This document shows positions 53,973 through 57,824 of a DNA stretch of 64,000 nucleotides, in pieces. Source of the stretch: Phycisphaerae bacterium (GTDB lineage: Bacteria > Planctomycetota > Phycisphaerae > Tepidisphaerales > Tepidisphaeraceae); assembly GCA_025936175.1 (NCBI GenBank), contig JAICTV010000003.1, positions 1-64,000 of the forward strand, given 5' to 3'. How positions within the stretch are numbered: the stretch's first letter is position 1; each line of letters begins with the position of its first letter. The position numbers and the translations under genes are program-made. The notes beneath the pieces are model-generated. The model was not told the DNA's origin, did no database searches, and saw nothing but the letters and a program-made list of their open reading frames with translations.

Positions 53973-54049
53973 ATTGAGTCATTGGGCGATCGCGTCATTT
54001 GAGCCATTGAAACAATGGCGCGATGACTCAATCACTCAATCGCTCAATG
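53973..54049. repeat. Imperfect palindrome upstream of the oxidoreductase gene
   Basis: ATTGAGTCATTGGGCGATCG... (53973-54009) and its degenerate inverse (54013-54049) meet at a three-base loop (AAA). It contains repeated TCAAT/ATTGA motifs. It lies 27 bp before the start codon at 53946, so it may affect that gene. Confidence 0.55.
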
Positions 54050-54345
54050 CTTCGCGACGTGGCTTACGGCCCTAGGTTCCTGTTTACCGCACGGCCGCAG
54101 GAGACGTCGTTTTGCACCGCGAGCTAGAGACTCTTGGCCTCGCGCGGGAGACGCCAATGGCGTGGCCGCCGGGGCCGAAAAGAGCGAAACACCATTCCTT
54201 ATCGGTCCAATTTGACCAGGAAGGGGAGAGAGATCATACCCCGCGGAACCGTCGCGACCAAGGGTGCTCGCTAAGTTGCGCAGGGACAGGAGACTACGAC
54301 GGCGGCGGGCGAGGGTTCGTATGGTCGTGGCCGGTGATTGTTGAA

Positions 54346-54405
54346 TGTGGATTGTTGATTGTTGCGTGGAGGCGGAATCGACGCTTCAACAATCGACAAC
54401 CCACA
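54346..54405. repeat. ATTGTTG-type inverted repeat
   Basis: TGTGGATTGTTGATTGTTG (54346-54364) and CAACAATCGACAACCCACA (54387-54405) pair with two mismatches. Similar TTGATTGTTGAATG repeats occur as intergenic elements in many bacteria. Confidence 0.5.
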
Positions 54406-54704
54406 ATCGTTCCATCCCTCAAACTTTGACGTCCGCTAACCCCAACGTCCGCGTGCGAACTGTGTCCGATAACATCGCGTAGGACTATCGAATACCCGCT
54501 ACATTCTCGCCAATTGACCTGGAAATAAATCTCGTTTGCTCCTGCCCGGATTGTTTTGGAAATACACACAAGCCTTGCCGCTTGGCAGGCCGATGAGAGA
54601 GGCGGGTTGAGGCCCACGGACGTAAAGGGCCGGATGTTCGAGGGCGGCACGCGCGCGGCCAGGGATGTATGCCCGCGCGGGGCCGGTTGTTCCGGAGGCA
54701 TCGG

Positions 54705-54806
54705 ATGCAAGGTCTTCTCGCATCGATTTTCGCGCAGGTCGCCGAGCTCGGCGTCTTTTTTGCCGCCGCCGCCGCGTTGGTTGCCGGGGCGTTGGCGCTG
54801 CGCTAA
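54705..54806 (+). CDS. 33-residue hydrophobic small protein or leader peptide
   Basis: ATG 54705 lies six bases after GGAGG (54694-54698), a strong ribosome site. The ORF encodes MQGLLASIFAQVAELGVFFA and ends AALVAGALALR, with an uninterrupted hydrophobic stretch of about 17 residues that could form a membrane helix. It is followed by a structured region and a terminator, before the sulfite dehydrogenase genes. It could be a small membrane protein or a leader peptide; no related peptide is known to me. The ribosome site is the main evidence for translation. Confidence 0.5.
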   Translation: MQGLLASIFAQVAELGVFFAAAAALVAGALALR

Positions 54807-54850
54807 GCCGTGGCCGGGTTTTTTGTTCGGTTGAAGATCGCCTCGTGATC

Positions 54851-54990
54851 GTCTCTGAGGCGGATCCTCGTCTGGCGAAGCTCCGGTAGAACGTCGCAAT
54901 CCGCTTCTGACGTTTTGATCGGCGCGAGGTCCGAGAGACATTACGGGTGAAATAAAAAAAGTCCTCCGCATTTGTTGCGGGGGACTTTTT
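54851..54990 (+). ncRNA. Structured leader/ncRNA ending in terminator, upstream of sulfite dehydrogenase
   Basis: An outer helix GTCTCT/AGAGAC (54851-54856 with 54934-54939) encloses a 9-bp helix GAGGCGGAT/ATCCGCTTC (54857-54865 with 54899-54907, one GU pair). Then GTCCTCCGCA (54961-54970) and TGCGGGGGAC (54976-54985), followed by TTTTT, form a terminator that fits the plus strand best (GU pair instead of a mismatch). The stop of transcription would be 30 bases before ATG 55021, which fits either an sRNA or a conditional terminator. No known riboswitch class was recognised. Confidence 0.45.
54961..54990 (+). terminator. Strong intrinsic terminator before sulfite dehydrogenase genes
   Basis: A 10-bp stem with a five-base loop followed by five T. 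A seven-base A-run in front also makes it usable on the minus strand, but there one pair is lost. Confidence 0.7.
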
Positions 54991-55004
54991 GTTTGCGCGA
55001 TCGT

Positions 55005-55010
55005 TACACT
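55005..55010 (+). promoter_or_regulatory. -10-like TACACT before the sulfite dehydrogenase gene
   Basis: TACACT, ten bases, ATG 55021. This promoter would lie after the terminator at 54961-54990, giving the gene an independent, nearly leaderless transcript. Confidence 0.35.
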
Positions 55011-55020
55011 TTGACGCGCA

Positions 55021-56247
55021 ATGCACCTCATCGATCGACGAACGTTTCTCAAAATCAGCGGACTGACCGGAGCGGGAATAGTGGCGCCGCGCGTTGTGTT
55101 CGCGGCGGATGCCACGAGCGCGGCAGCCGACAGGCCGCAAGCGGCTCCCTGGCGGTCGCGGCTCGTCAAGTTTCCCGAGAAGACGGAGATGATCCTGCTG
55201 ACGGATCGCCCGCCGCAGCTCGAGACCCCGCTCAAATACTTCAAGCAGGACCTGACGCCCAACGAAGCGTTCTTCGTGCGCTGGCATCTGTCGGGGATAC
55301 CGACCTCGGTCGATCTGGGCACGTTCCGATTATCGGTCGGCGGGCATGTCGAGAAGCCGCTGAGCCTGAGCGTCGCTGACTTAAAGAAGAACTTCGAGCC
55401 GGTGTCGCTGGTCGCGGTGGGGCAGTGCTCGGGCAACTCGCGGAGTTTCTTCCAGCCGCGCGTCGCCGGCGGACAGTGGGCCAACGGCGCGATGGGTTGC
55501 GCGAAGTGGACCGGTGTGCGTCTCAAAGATCTTCTCGAGCGCGCCGGCGTGAAGAGCGGCGCGGTTGACGTCCGTTTCGCCGGCCTCGATGAGCCGCCGC
55601 TACCGGACACCGCCAAGTTCGTCAAATCGCTCGATCTCCAGCATGCCGCCGACGGCGAAGTGATGGTCGCCTACGCGATGAACGATGCGGACCTGCCGAT
55701 GCTCAACGGCTATCCGCTGCGGTTGATCGTTCCCGGCTGGTTCGCGACCTACTGGGTCAAATCGCTGAACCAGATCAACGTCCTGCCGGAGAAGTTCAAA
55801 GGCTTCTGGATGGACAAGGCGTATCGCATCCCCAAAGCCGACAATCACAACGAATCGCCGCAGCGGCTTGCGACGGAGACGATCCCGATCAACAGGCACA
55901 CGCTGCGATCGATCTTCGTCACGCCGCCGAACGTCGCGGCCTTGGCGGACAAGCCAATTGAGGTCGAGGGTCTTGCCTTCGACGACGGCACCGGTGTAAC
56001 GAAGGTCGAACTCTCGTCCGACGGCGGAAAGAGCTGGAACGAAACGAAGTTCGTCGGCGATGACATGGGCAAATACGCCTGGCGACGATGGAAGACGAGC
56101 TGGACGCCGCCGGCGCCGGGATCGTTCACGCTCATGTGCTGCGCGACGAACAAGGCGGGCGTGATGCAGACGACCGCGCCGCAGTGGAACCGCAGCGGCT
56201 ATCAGCGCAACGTGATCGAGCAGATCCAGGTGGAGGTGCGGGCGTGA
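55021..56247 (+). CDS. Sulfite-oxidase-family molybdenum enzyme (SorA-like)
   Basis: A 408-residue enzyme exported by the Tat pathway (RRTFLK at 6-11). The molybdopterin domain has GQCSGNSRSFF with the molybdenum-ligating Cys136, and AMNDADLPMLNGYPLRLIVPGWF; the C-terminal dimerisation domain contains VEGLAFDDGTGVTKVELSSDGGKSWNE (in pieces). It should oxidise sulfite to sulfate in the periplasm and pass electrons to the cytochrome encoded by the overlapping next gene, as in SorAB; another substrate of the same family is possible. It may be transcribed from a promoter just after the leader's terminator. Confidence 0.87.
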   Translation: MHLIDRRTFLKISGLTGAGIVAPRVVFAADATSAAADRPQAAPWRSRLVKFPEKTEMILLTDRPPQLETPLKYFKQDLTPNEAFFVRWHLSGIPTSVDLGTFRLSVGGHVEKPLSLSVADLKKNFEPVSLVAVGQCSGNSRSFFQPRVAGGQWANGAMGCAKWTGVRLKDLLERAGVKSGAVDVRFAGLDEPPLPDTAKFVKSLDLQHAADGEVMVAYAMNDADLPMLNGYPLRLIVPGWFATYWVKSLNQINVLPEKFKGFWMDKAYRIPKADNHNESPQRLATETIPINRHTLRSIFVTPPNVAALADKPIEVEGLAFDDGTGVTKVELSSDGGKSWNETKFVGDDMGKYAWRRWKTSWTPPAPGSFTLMCCATNKAGVMQTTAPQWNRSGYQRNVIEQIQVEVRA

Positions 56248-57140
56248 AGCGAATCGCACTCCTGGTCATCGTTCTCGCTGCGTCGATCGCGCAGGCGCAG
56301 GTCAAATCGATCGAGCTTCCGAAGTATCAGCCGTACCTCCCGCCGGGCCCCGGCCGCGAGCTGTTCGCGACCTCGTGCCTCTCGTGTCACGCGACCCGCT
56401 ACATCACCATGCAGCCGGTGATGACGCAGGGAAAGTGGGAGGAGAGCGTCAGGAAGATGATCAAGACCTACGGCGCGCCGATCAGCGAGGAGCTCGTGCC
56501 GGAAATCGCGCAGTATCTCGTCGCGTTCCAACAGGCCCCGCTCGATCCGCTCTCGCGCGTGACGGCGAATCCGGAGCCGAAGATTTCCTTCGACCCGAAC
56601 GCTGGCGACGCTGGCAAGGGAAAAGCGGTCTACGCGCGGGCGTGCGCGTCGTGTCACGGGACGGAAGGCAAAGGCGACGGCCCGGCGATGGCGAACCTGT
56701 TGCCGGTCGCGACGAACTTGACGGCCGGCCGTTTCGCGCGATCGGCGGTCGTCCGCGCGATCACGCACGGCGTGCCGGGGACGTCGATGCCGGCGTTTCC
56801 GTCGCTCTCTGCGGGCGACGTCCAGGACGTCGTCGCTTGCGTGACGCAGATGGGCGGTGCGACCGAACCGACGATCGTCTCCGATCAGGCGAAGCTGCTC
56901 TTCACGCAGAACTGCGCGAGCTGTCACGGAAACGACGGCCGTGGCGACGGTTTCAACGCGTCCACTCTGCCGCGCGCGCCGACGAACTTCAGCCAGCGCG
57001 AACCGGCGACCGAACAGGCGCTCAAGGCGATCACCGACGGCGTCGCGGGCACGCCGATGCCGTCGTGGAAGGCGAAATTGGCCGACCCCCAGCGGAAGCT
57101 GCTGGCGGATTACGTCCGCACGCTTTACCACGGCGACTAA
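56244..57140 (+). CDS. Secreted cytochrome c with three heme sites (SorB-like)
   Basis: A 298-residue exported protein starting at GTG 56244, which overlaps the previous stop (GTGA) and follows GGAGGTG. A signal peptide ends around QAQA. CLSCH, CASCH and CASCH are three CxxCH heme-binding motifs, so three cytochrome c-like domains. It probably accepts electrons from the sulfite dehydrogenase-like enzyme and passes them to a terminal oxidase or cytochrome; usual SorB subunits have one heme, so three heme domains are unusual. Confidence 0.88.
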   Translation: MKRIALLVIVLAASIAQAQVKSIELPKYQPYLPPGPGRELFATSCLSCHATRYITMQPVMTQGKWEESVRKMIKTYGAPISEELVPEIAQYLVAFQQAPLDPLSRVTANPEPKISFDPNAGDAGKGKAVYARACASCHGTEGKGDGPAMANLLPVATNLTAGRFARSAVVRAITHGVPGTSMPAFPSLSAGDVQDVVACVTQMGGATEPTIVSDQAKLLFTQNCASCHGNDGRGDGFNASTLPRAPTNFSQREPATEQALKAITDGVAGTPMPSWKAKLADPQRKLLADYVRTLYHGD

Positions 57141-57485: not shown

Positions 57486-57824
57486 ATGCAGGCTTCGAAA
57501 CGGGCCGGGGTCGGGTTGGTTGTGGTGATGACGGCGGTTCTGACCGGCGTCGCGCTGGCGCAGCCGCGCGGCGGCGGGGGAGGTGGCGGCGGACAACACG
57601 GCCCGCCGCCGGGCGGGGGGCAGGGCCAGGGGCAGCAGCACGGACAAGGCGGCGGGGGCGGCGGTGGCAACGGTCCCACCAGCCGGCCGAGTCCCGATCA
57701 ACTCTTCGATCGCGCGGACACGGATCACAACGGCGTGCTGTCGCGCGAGGAGTTCAAGGCGTTCCTCGCCCATCGTCCGCCGTCCCCGCAGCGACCGCCG
57801 CAGGGGTCGGGGGATAACAGTTGA
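57486..57824 (+). CDS. Small secreted EF-hand protein
   Basis: A 112-residue exported protein. GGAG precedes the ATG by about eight bases. A signal peptide ends at VALAQ; a long Gly/Gln/His-rich stretch (about 27-62) follows, then one EF-hand calcium-binding loop (FDRADTDHNGVLSREEFKAFL, about 74-94) and a Pro-rich tail. Such short EF-hand proteins are common in planctomycetes; function unknown. Confidence 0.75.
   Translation: MQASKRAGVGLVVVMTAVLTGVALAQPRGGGGGGGGQHGPPPGGGQGQGQQHGQGGGGGGGNGPTSRPSPDQLFDRADTDHNGVLSREEFKAFLAHRPPSPQRPPQGSGDNS

Follow-up and report, generated by a model that had tools for sequence, protein, structure and literature searches.

The window, that is, the whole stretch of 64,000 nucleotides that was analyzed from contig JAICTV010000003.1 (Phycisphaerae bacterium, draft assembly), carries on its plus strand a 33-codon ORF (54705-54806) within a gap of about 1 kb. 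The first-pass annotation of this DNA had seen no other gene in the gap, and none was recognized between 53983 and 55020. The GGAGG-N6-ATG start that it had described was also present, with GGAGG at 54694-54698, six intervening nucleotides and the ATG at 54705. Two tandem boxes and a leader with GGA-containing hairpins lie upstream of the ORF, and an imperfect hairpin and an intrinsic terminator lie downstream of it, all on the plus strand. At the start of the gene for a 1257-residue 2-oxoacid:ferredoxin oxidoreductase there is a palindrome (53973-54032) with 25-nt arms that are 76% complementary and contain ATTGAGTCATT / ACTCAAT units.

After the gap, two plus-strand genes encode a SorA-like sulfite dehydrogenase catalytic subunit (55021-56247; PF00174 and PF03404) and a c-type cytochrome subunit (56244-57140) with an N-terminal SorB-like region and further haem c domains matching cytochrome c families. 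The NCBIfam scores were 524 bits for SorA (NF052245, cut-off 600) and 86.9 bits for SorB (NF052246, cut-off 93); judged by these scores, the pair is SorAB-like and does not belong to the strict SorA and SorB families. Compared to the 80-residue SorB model, the cytochrome subunit is longer by about 200 residues, in which two more cytochrome c domains occur, and by its domain content it is a fused multi-haem partner. A short protein that is rich in glycine and proline and has a single EF-hand motif is encoded after the sor genes (57486-57824). A strong SorA match was found in 5 of the 198 relatives searched, the window's genome included. When the whole stretch was searched at the DNA level in the 198 relatives, only short GC-rich matches within coding genes were obtained.

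Conservation and coding character of the 33-codon ORF

The product of the ORF is MQGLLASIFAQVAELGVFFAAAAALVAGALALR. The maximum 19-residue Kyte-Doolittle mean of its hydrophobic stretch was 2.09, and insertion of the protein into the membrane as a single helix is predicted. When the 33-residue protein was used as a single query, homologues in genomes of the same family were recovered at E values of 2.7e-6 to 1e-3 with 56-65% identity. A profile search extended the homologues to 17 genomes plus one tentative genome (G003) of the 26 in the window's Phycisphaerae family, and no convincing homologue was found in the remainder of about 400 genomes of the class and 392 genomes of the phylum. No relatives were found in viral contigs. 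Members that were weak in the single-sequence search had independent support from the RNA leader (G002, G015, G018 and G009), from the upstream boxes (G005, G018 and G021) or from the gene neighbourhood (G013 and G014). Five near-complete genomes of the family did not contain the ORF, indicating that it is dispensable in some lineages.

The substitutions among homologues followed the reading frame. Comparison of the ORF in the window with that of G020 revealed 10, 5 and 25 differences at codon positions 1, 2 and 3, respectively, and 18 codons with synonymous changes only. The mean pairwise BLOSUM score was 56 in frame, and it fell to 2 and -1 when the alternative forward frames were read. In G020 an in-frame stop codon lies two codons upstream of the aligned ATG, and the start of the ORF is therefore fixed. 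On this codon-level evidence, the substitutions are judged to be clearly coding and the ORF to be a real, unannotated small-protein gene. This agrees with the earlier suggestion of a translated ORF with a potential membrane helix, and the lack of ORF conservation in relatives that had been named as grounds for abandoning that suggestion was not observed. Searches with 18 members of the family gave only chance-level matches in Pfam and NCBIfam; as far as these two libraries extend, the small-protein family appears to be undescribed. A terminator-like stem followed by a T run (CGCCGAGCTCGGCG-TCTTTTTT, plus strand) occurs inside the ORF at 54740-54761 and may be a by-product of encoding AELGVFF.

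Gene neighbourhood of the ORF family

The ORF precedes pstB in five genomes (G002, G005, G009, G014 and G015). In four of these (G002, G009, G014 and G015) a second shared gene comes after pstB; it clusters with phoU from G013, the genome in which the ORF itself precedes phoU. In G001, G007, G013 and G020 the ORF follows one 410-residue gene whose protein had no Pfam match and which we take to be RMD1-like. The flanking genes varied in the remaining ORF-bearing genomes. In several genomes an AT-rich GTTAAGATTTGATAA-like sequence was found between the ORF and pstB, suggesting that pstB has its own promoter. This sequence, which sits 15-75 nt after the ORF stop codon in L072, L077 and others, is possibly a Pho-type operator. 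Taken as a whole, the neighbourhoods describe what appears to be a free-standing gene with a bias in location toward phosphate genes; the putative link to phosphate is entirely one of gene neighbourhood. Small DUF1127 proteins act on PhoR and phosphate uptake (PMC12501420). The 33-residue protein resembles them in having fewer than 50 residues and in its location before pstB-phoU in five genomes and before phoU in one. In contrast to them, it had no DUF1127 match and is a predicted hydrophobic single helix.

Tandem boxes upstream of the leader

Upstream of the leader, box 1 (GTCCGCTAA, 54431-54439) has one mismatch to GTCCGATAA, and box 2 (54464-54472) is an exact copy of it. Two copies of GTCCGATAA with at most one mismatch each were present in 9-10 genomes of the family, including the window, at a spacing of 31-33 bp and about 200-275 bp upstream of the ATG. 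The strict pattern GTCCNATAA-N18-28-GTCCNATAA occurred once in each of six family genomes, always before the ORF (6/6), and the reversed-pattern control gave no matches in the family genomes. In other families of the class, pairs were at chance level (6 hits in about 371 genomes compared to about 7 for the reversed-pattern control), with unrelated genes downstream. The boxes are probably the sites of a transcription factor, and direct repeats about three helical turns apart suggest that it would bind cooperatively. A reading of GTCCGATAA as a sigma-28 -10 element was dropped after inspection by eye, as no TAAA was present at the right spacing, and a promoter scan of the region yielded no full sigma-70 match.

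Two side observations were made on other repeats. In G079 and G094 (L186 and L187), which belong to another Phycisphaerae family, the pair GTCCCATAA-N26-GTCCTATAA with conserved flanks precedes the gene for a 410-residue protein, and this may reflect either chance or a related regulon. An inverted repeat with 23-nt arms, a 27-nt loop and GATTGTTGA-like units is located at 54336-54408; short partial copies of it are scattered over about a dozen further sites of the genome, and it therefore looks like a dispersed palindromic repeat.

GGA hairpins in the leader RNA

The informative RNA was found to lie upstream of the ORF (54585-54704) and not downstream of it. Hairpin 1 (54611-54631, GGCCC-ACGGACGTAAA-GGGCC) carries a CsrA-type GGA (54618-54620) in a loop of the ACRGGAYGU type that is shared with relatives, and a CGATG element (54591-54595) that recurs 15-30 nt upstream of hairpin 1 was recognized in a visual alignment of the leaders. 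A further hairpin (54652-54679) displays the GGA at 54663-54665 in the loop CAGGGATGTAT (54660-54670) and occupies the place of a covarying GGA-triloop hairpin in relatives. In the full-leader ensemble, the GGA was in a hairpin loop in 95% of structures for this second loop and in about 12% for the loop of hairpin 1 (ACGGACGT, 54616-54623), whose GGA was base-paired most of the time. The Shine-Dalgarno sequence CCGGAGG (54692-54698) is also a GGA site, and a GGAGG-type Shine-Dalgarno sequence is present in most relatives. A further GGA overlaps the start codon (54703-54705), and the final 90 nt of the leader in the window contain five GGA sites.

The enrichment of these features was evident across the family. 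The motif A.GGA[CT]G occurred 10 times in the 130 nt that precede the ATG across 18 genomes compared to 1.7 in shuffled sequences, and 9 times compared to 0.6 expected from control leaders. The number of GGA in hairpin loops was 13.1 compared to 4.5 +/- 1.8 in shuffles when one genome per genus was used, and 0.82 per leader compared to 0.15 in a control set of 131 leaders taken at the same loci. Two hairpins recur in the leaders, one of the form CCC-ACRGGAYGU...-GGG and the other a six-pair stem with a GGA triloop. In nine sequences of the latter, two-sided changes were found in 6/6 pairs and 87% of the cells pair, in an alignment hand-trimmed around the triloop, which favours that structure (slid controls were 26-52% paired). 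The covariation score was 0.764 compared to 0.277, and 0/500 shuffles reached 0.764. A covariance model built from six leaders gave ORF leaders as its best hits in the family, including those of G001, G019 and G020, which were outside the model. Hits of the model away from the ORF (G015:C208 and G002:C465 were checked) lay inside or antisense to long ORFs and were set aside as chance. The leader in the window diverges from the others (R1 scored only 14.3 bits). Clear GGA hairpins were absent from the leaders of G013, G014, G021 and G003, indicating that conservation of the ORF is not always accompanied by conservation of the leader.

The leaders of relatives also share a conserved CCGGYC just after hairpin 2, and neither this nor the CGATG before hairpin 1 is explained by CsrA binding. 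No Rfam family matched the flagged stretch, also at relaxed thresholds, where Thr_leader, ctRNA and miRNA hits were generic hairpin matches far below their gathering scores. A resemblance of 54624-54655 to the sulfatase motif KGxxxEGGTR, seen with a sulfatase-like gene in L007, was rejected as it is a similarity of only 32 bp in the window with no gene.

A proposed CsrA-type mode of translational control

CsrA preferentially recognizes the consensus RUACARGGAUGU with its GGA in hairpin loops and competes with ribosomes at the Shine-Dalgarno sequence (PMC4347634). The leaders show the corresponding features: GGA in an A(N)GGA context is found in hairpin loops, with one strong and one weak site in the window, and further sites lie in the Shine-Dalgarno sequence (54694-54696) and run into the ATG (54703-54705). 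The csrA gene scored above the cut-off in 26/26 genomes of the family, and the copy in the source genome keeps its RNA-contact segment, with MLVLSRQ and VHRKEVY intact. This copy lies beside an ORF that is presumably flgA-like. The ACRGGAYGU loops, the GGA at the Shine-Dalgarno sequence and the presence of csrA in every family genome led us to propose that control is most likely exerted through repression of translation by CsrA. As csrA is universal in the family, its co-occurrence with the leader cannot discriminate.

We favour, with a probability of roughly 0.62, the reading that 54430-54990 is one free-standing monocistronic unit composed of the boxes, a CsrA-type leader, the ORF for the small membrane protein and the terminator, and that it is under translational control by CsrA. 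In such a unit, a transcription factor would bind the two GTCCGATAA boxes in the upstream control region. The 5' leader of the transcript, roughly 100 nt in length, would contain several CsrA-type GGA sites, of which two lie in hairpins, one in the Shine-Dalgarno sequence and one over the start codon. CsrA dimers would bridge the hairpin sites and the ribosome-binding site and thereby repress translation, and production of the small protein would be restricted to a particular physiological state in which CsrA is titrated away. Both the binding of CsrA to the leader and the direction of control are inferred here from the arrangement of sites. The predicted unit is like CsrA/RsmA-repressed mRNA leaders in that its loops are of the ACRGGAYGU type, its stems covary, GGA is present at the Shine-Dalgarno sequence and by the start codon, and every genome has csrA. 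It is unlike them in its Planctomycetota host, in the undescribed 33-residue predicted membrane protein and in the extra conserved CGATG and CCGGYC.

The same small-protein gene might be controlled through hairpins that are not CsrA sites and are instead bound by another protein or a ligand, or that serve as a standby or mRNA-stability element. The two conserved motifs that flank the hairpins and the uninformative presence of csrA are in keeping with such a function. In contrast, the GGA in the loop is the invariant part of the hairpins while their stems covary freely, ACRGGAYGU is the published CsrA consensus, and the GGA at the Shine-Dalgarno sequence completes the usual pattern. We consider this alternative unlikely, though with a real share of the probability.

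It is improbable, to a greater degree, that the transcript is a dual-function RNA in Planctomycetota whose leader would sequester CsrA in the manner of CsrB or RsmZ, while the protein encoded by its ORF would be tied to phosphate uptake through the pstB-phoU neighbourhood and its expression driven by a dedicated tandem-box promoter. The number of GGA sites in the window leader and the unique tandem boxes, which suggest one dedicated and strongly controlled promoter, would fit this idea. CsrB/CsrC/RsmX/Y/Z sponges and TwoAYGGAY (RF01731) share with the window RNA the CsrA-type GGA-loop hairpins and a short RNA ending in a terminator. In contrast, the window RNA has fewer sites and carries a conserved ORF, and the Rfam sponge families (CsrB/RsmZ type and TwoAYGGAY) did not match it. 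Typical CsrA sponges carry more than the 2 to 4 strong sites found per RNA here. Moreover, the sites overlap the Shine-Dalgarno sequence, as in ordinary repressed mRNAs, and coding constraint acts on the ORF. TwoAYGGAY has been predicted to be a CsrA-binding sRNA from outside Gammaproteobacteria, which at that time were the only group in which this class of sRNA was known (PMC4333381). A precedent for a peptide-coding sRNA is SR1/SR1P of Bacillus subtilis, a dual-function RNA with a 39-residue peptide (PMC8501984); the window RNA is like it in being short, in its small ORF and in a putative link to CsrA, and unlike it in that no sequence relation was shown and SR1P is not known to be a membrane protein.

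Relationship of the unit to the downstream sor genes

An intrinsic terminator (54956-54990) with a 15-bp stem, a 5-nt loop, an A run before it and a T run after it ends 30 nt upstream of the sorA ATG on the same strand, as the first-pass annotation had reported; it could act in both directions. The two nested helices that had been placed at 54851-54939 correspond to a real imperfect hairpin, which would form the 3' part of the presumed transcript and is wider than had been described (54838-54950; MFE -49.0 compared to -40.0 +/- 3.7 in shuffles, z -2.4). The fold of 54810-54995 as a whole was also stronger than shuffles, with a z of -4.6 that was driven partly by the terminator stem.

These features had led to the idea that the ORF and helices form a leader, attenuator or riboswitch that decides read-through of the terminator into sorA, possibly by sensing sulfite or the molybdenum cofactor. 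The position of the terminator and the strength of the fold agree with this idea. The comparison with relatives speaks against it. The ORF adjoins sor genes in the window only and is unlinked to them in every relative, and the hairpin at 54838-54950, which is unique in its own genome, was without an equivalent downstream of the ORF in relatives, the very lack of helix conservation that had been foreseen as damaging to it. Terminator-like hairpins after the ORF were found in G022, G001 and G019, and a weaker one in G014. Conversely, the regions upstream of SorA orthologues of the family (L023, L020 and L022) had neither the helices nor a comparable terminator and did not resemble the window, and no riboswitch family in Rfam matched, even at relaxed thresholds. 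A role in sor regulation through sulfite or molybdenum sensing thus becomes very improbable, and it is highly probable (about nine chances in ten) that the unit represents a genuine small-protein gene that is distinct from sor.

In the favoured reading, with CsrA acting on a free-standing unit, the transcript would end at the terminator and the sor genes would be transcribed separately from a start after it. The sorA ATG has no Shine-Dalgarno sequence and the hexamer TACACT (55005-55010), a possible -10 element judged from sequence, ends 10 nt upstream; a separate, nearly leaderless start from an independent sor promoter after the terminator is therefore possible. For this putative promoter, too, the scan gave no full sigma-70 consensus. 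Type I toxins are short and hydrophobic and have a structured leader that blocks translation, and the peptide resembles them in its size, hydrophobicity and leader, yet such a toxin is scarcely to be expected here, since searches gave one strong locus per genome, in recurrent chromosomal neighbourhoods, confined to one family and with none in viral contigs.

Significance

The present analysis disposes of a misleading lead toward a riboswitch for sulfite or molybdenum and contributes a small-protein family that is undescribed and is taken to be real on the grounds of its codon-level conservation. The tandem GTCCGATAA pair provides a unique promoter signature for finding the regulator. No study of CsrA targets in Planctomycetota turned up in a literature search. 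The findings point to a conserved candidate leader of the CsrA type in this phylum, and the leader would offer a concrete small RNA on which the action of CsrA in Planctomycetota may be tested.
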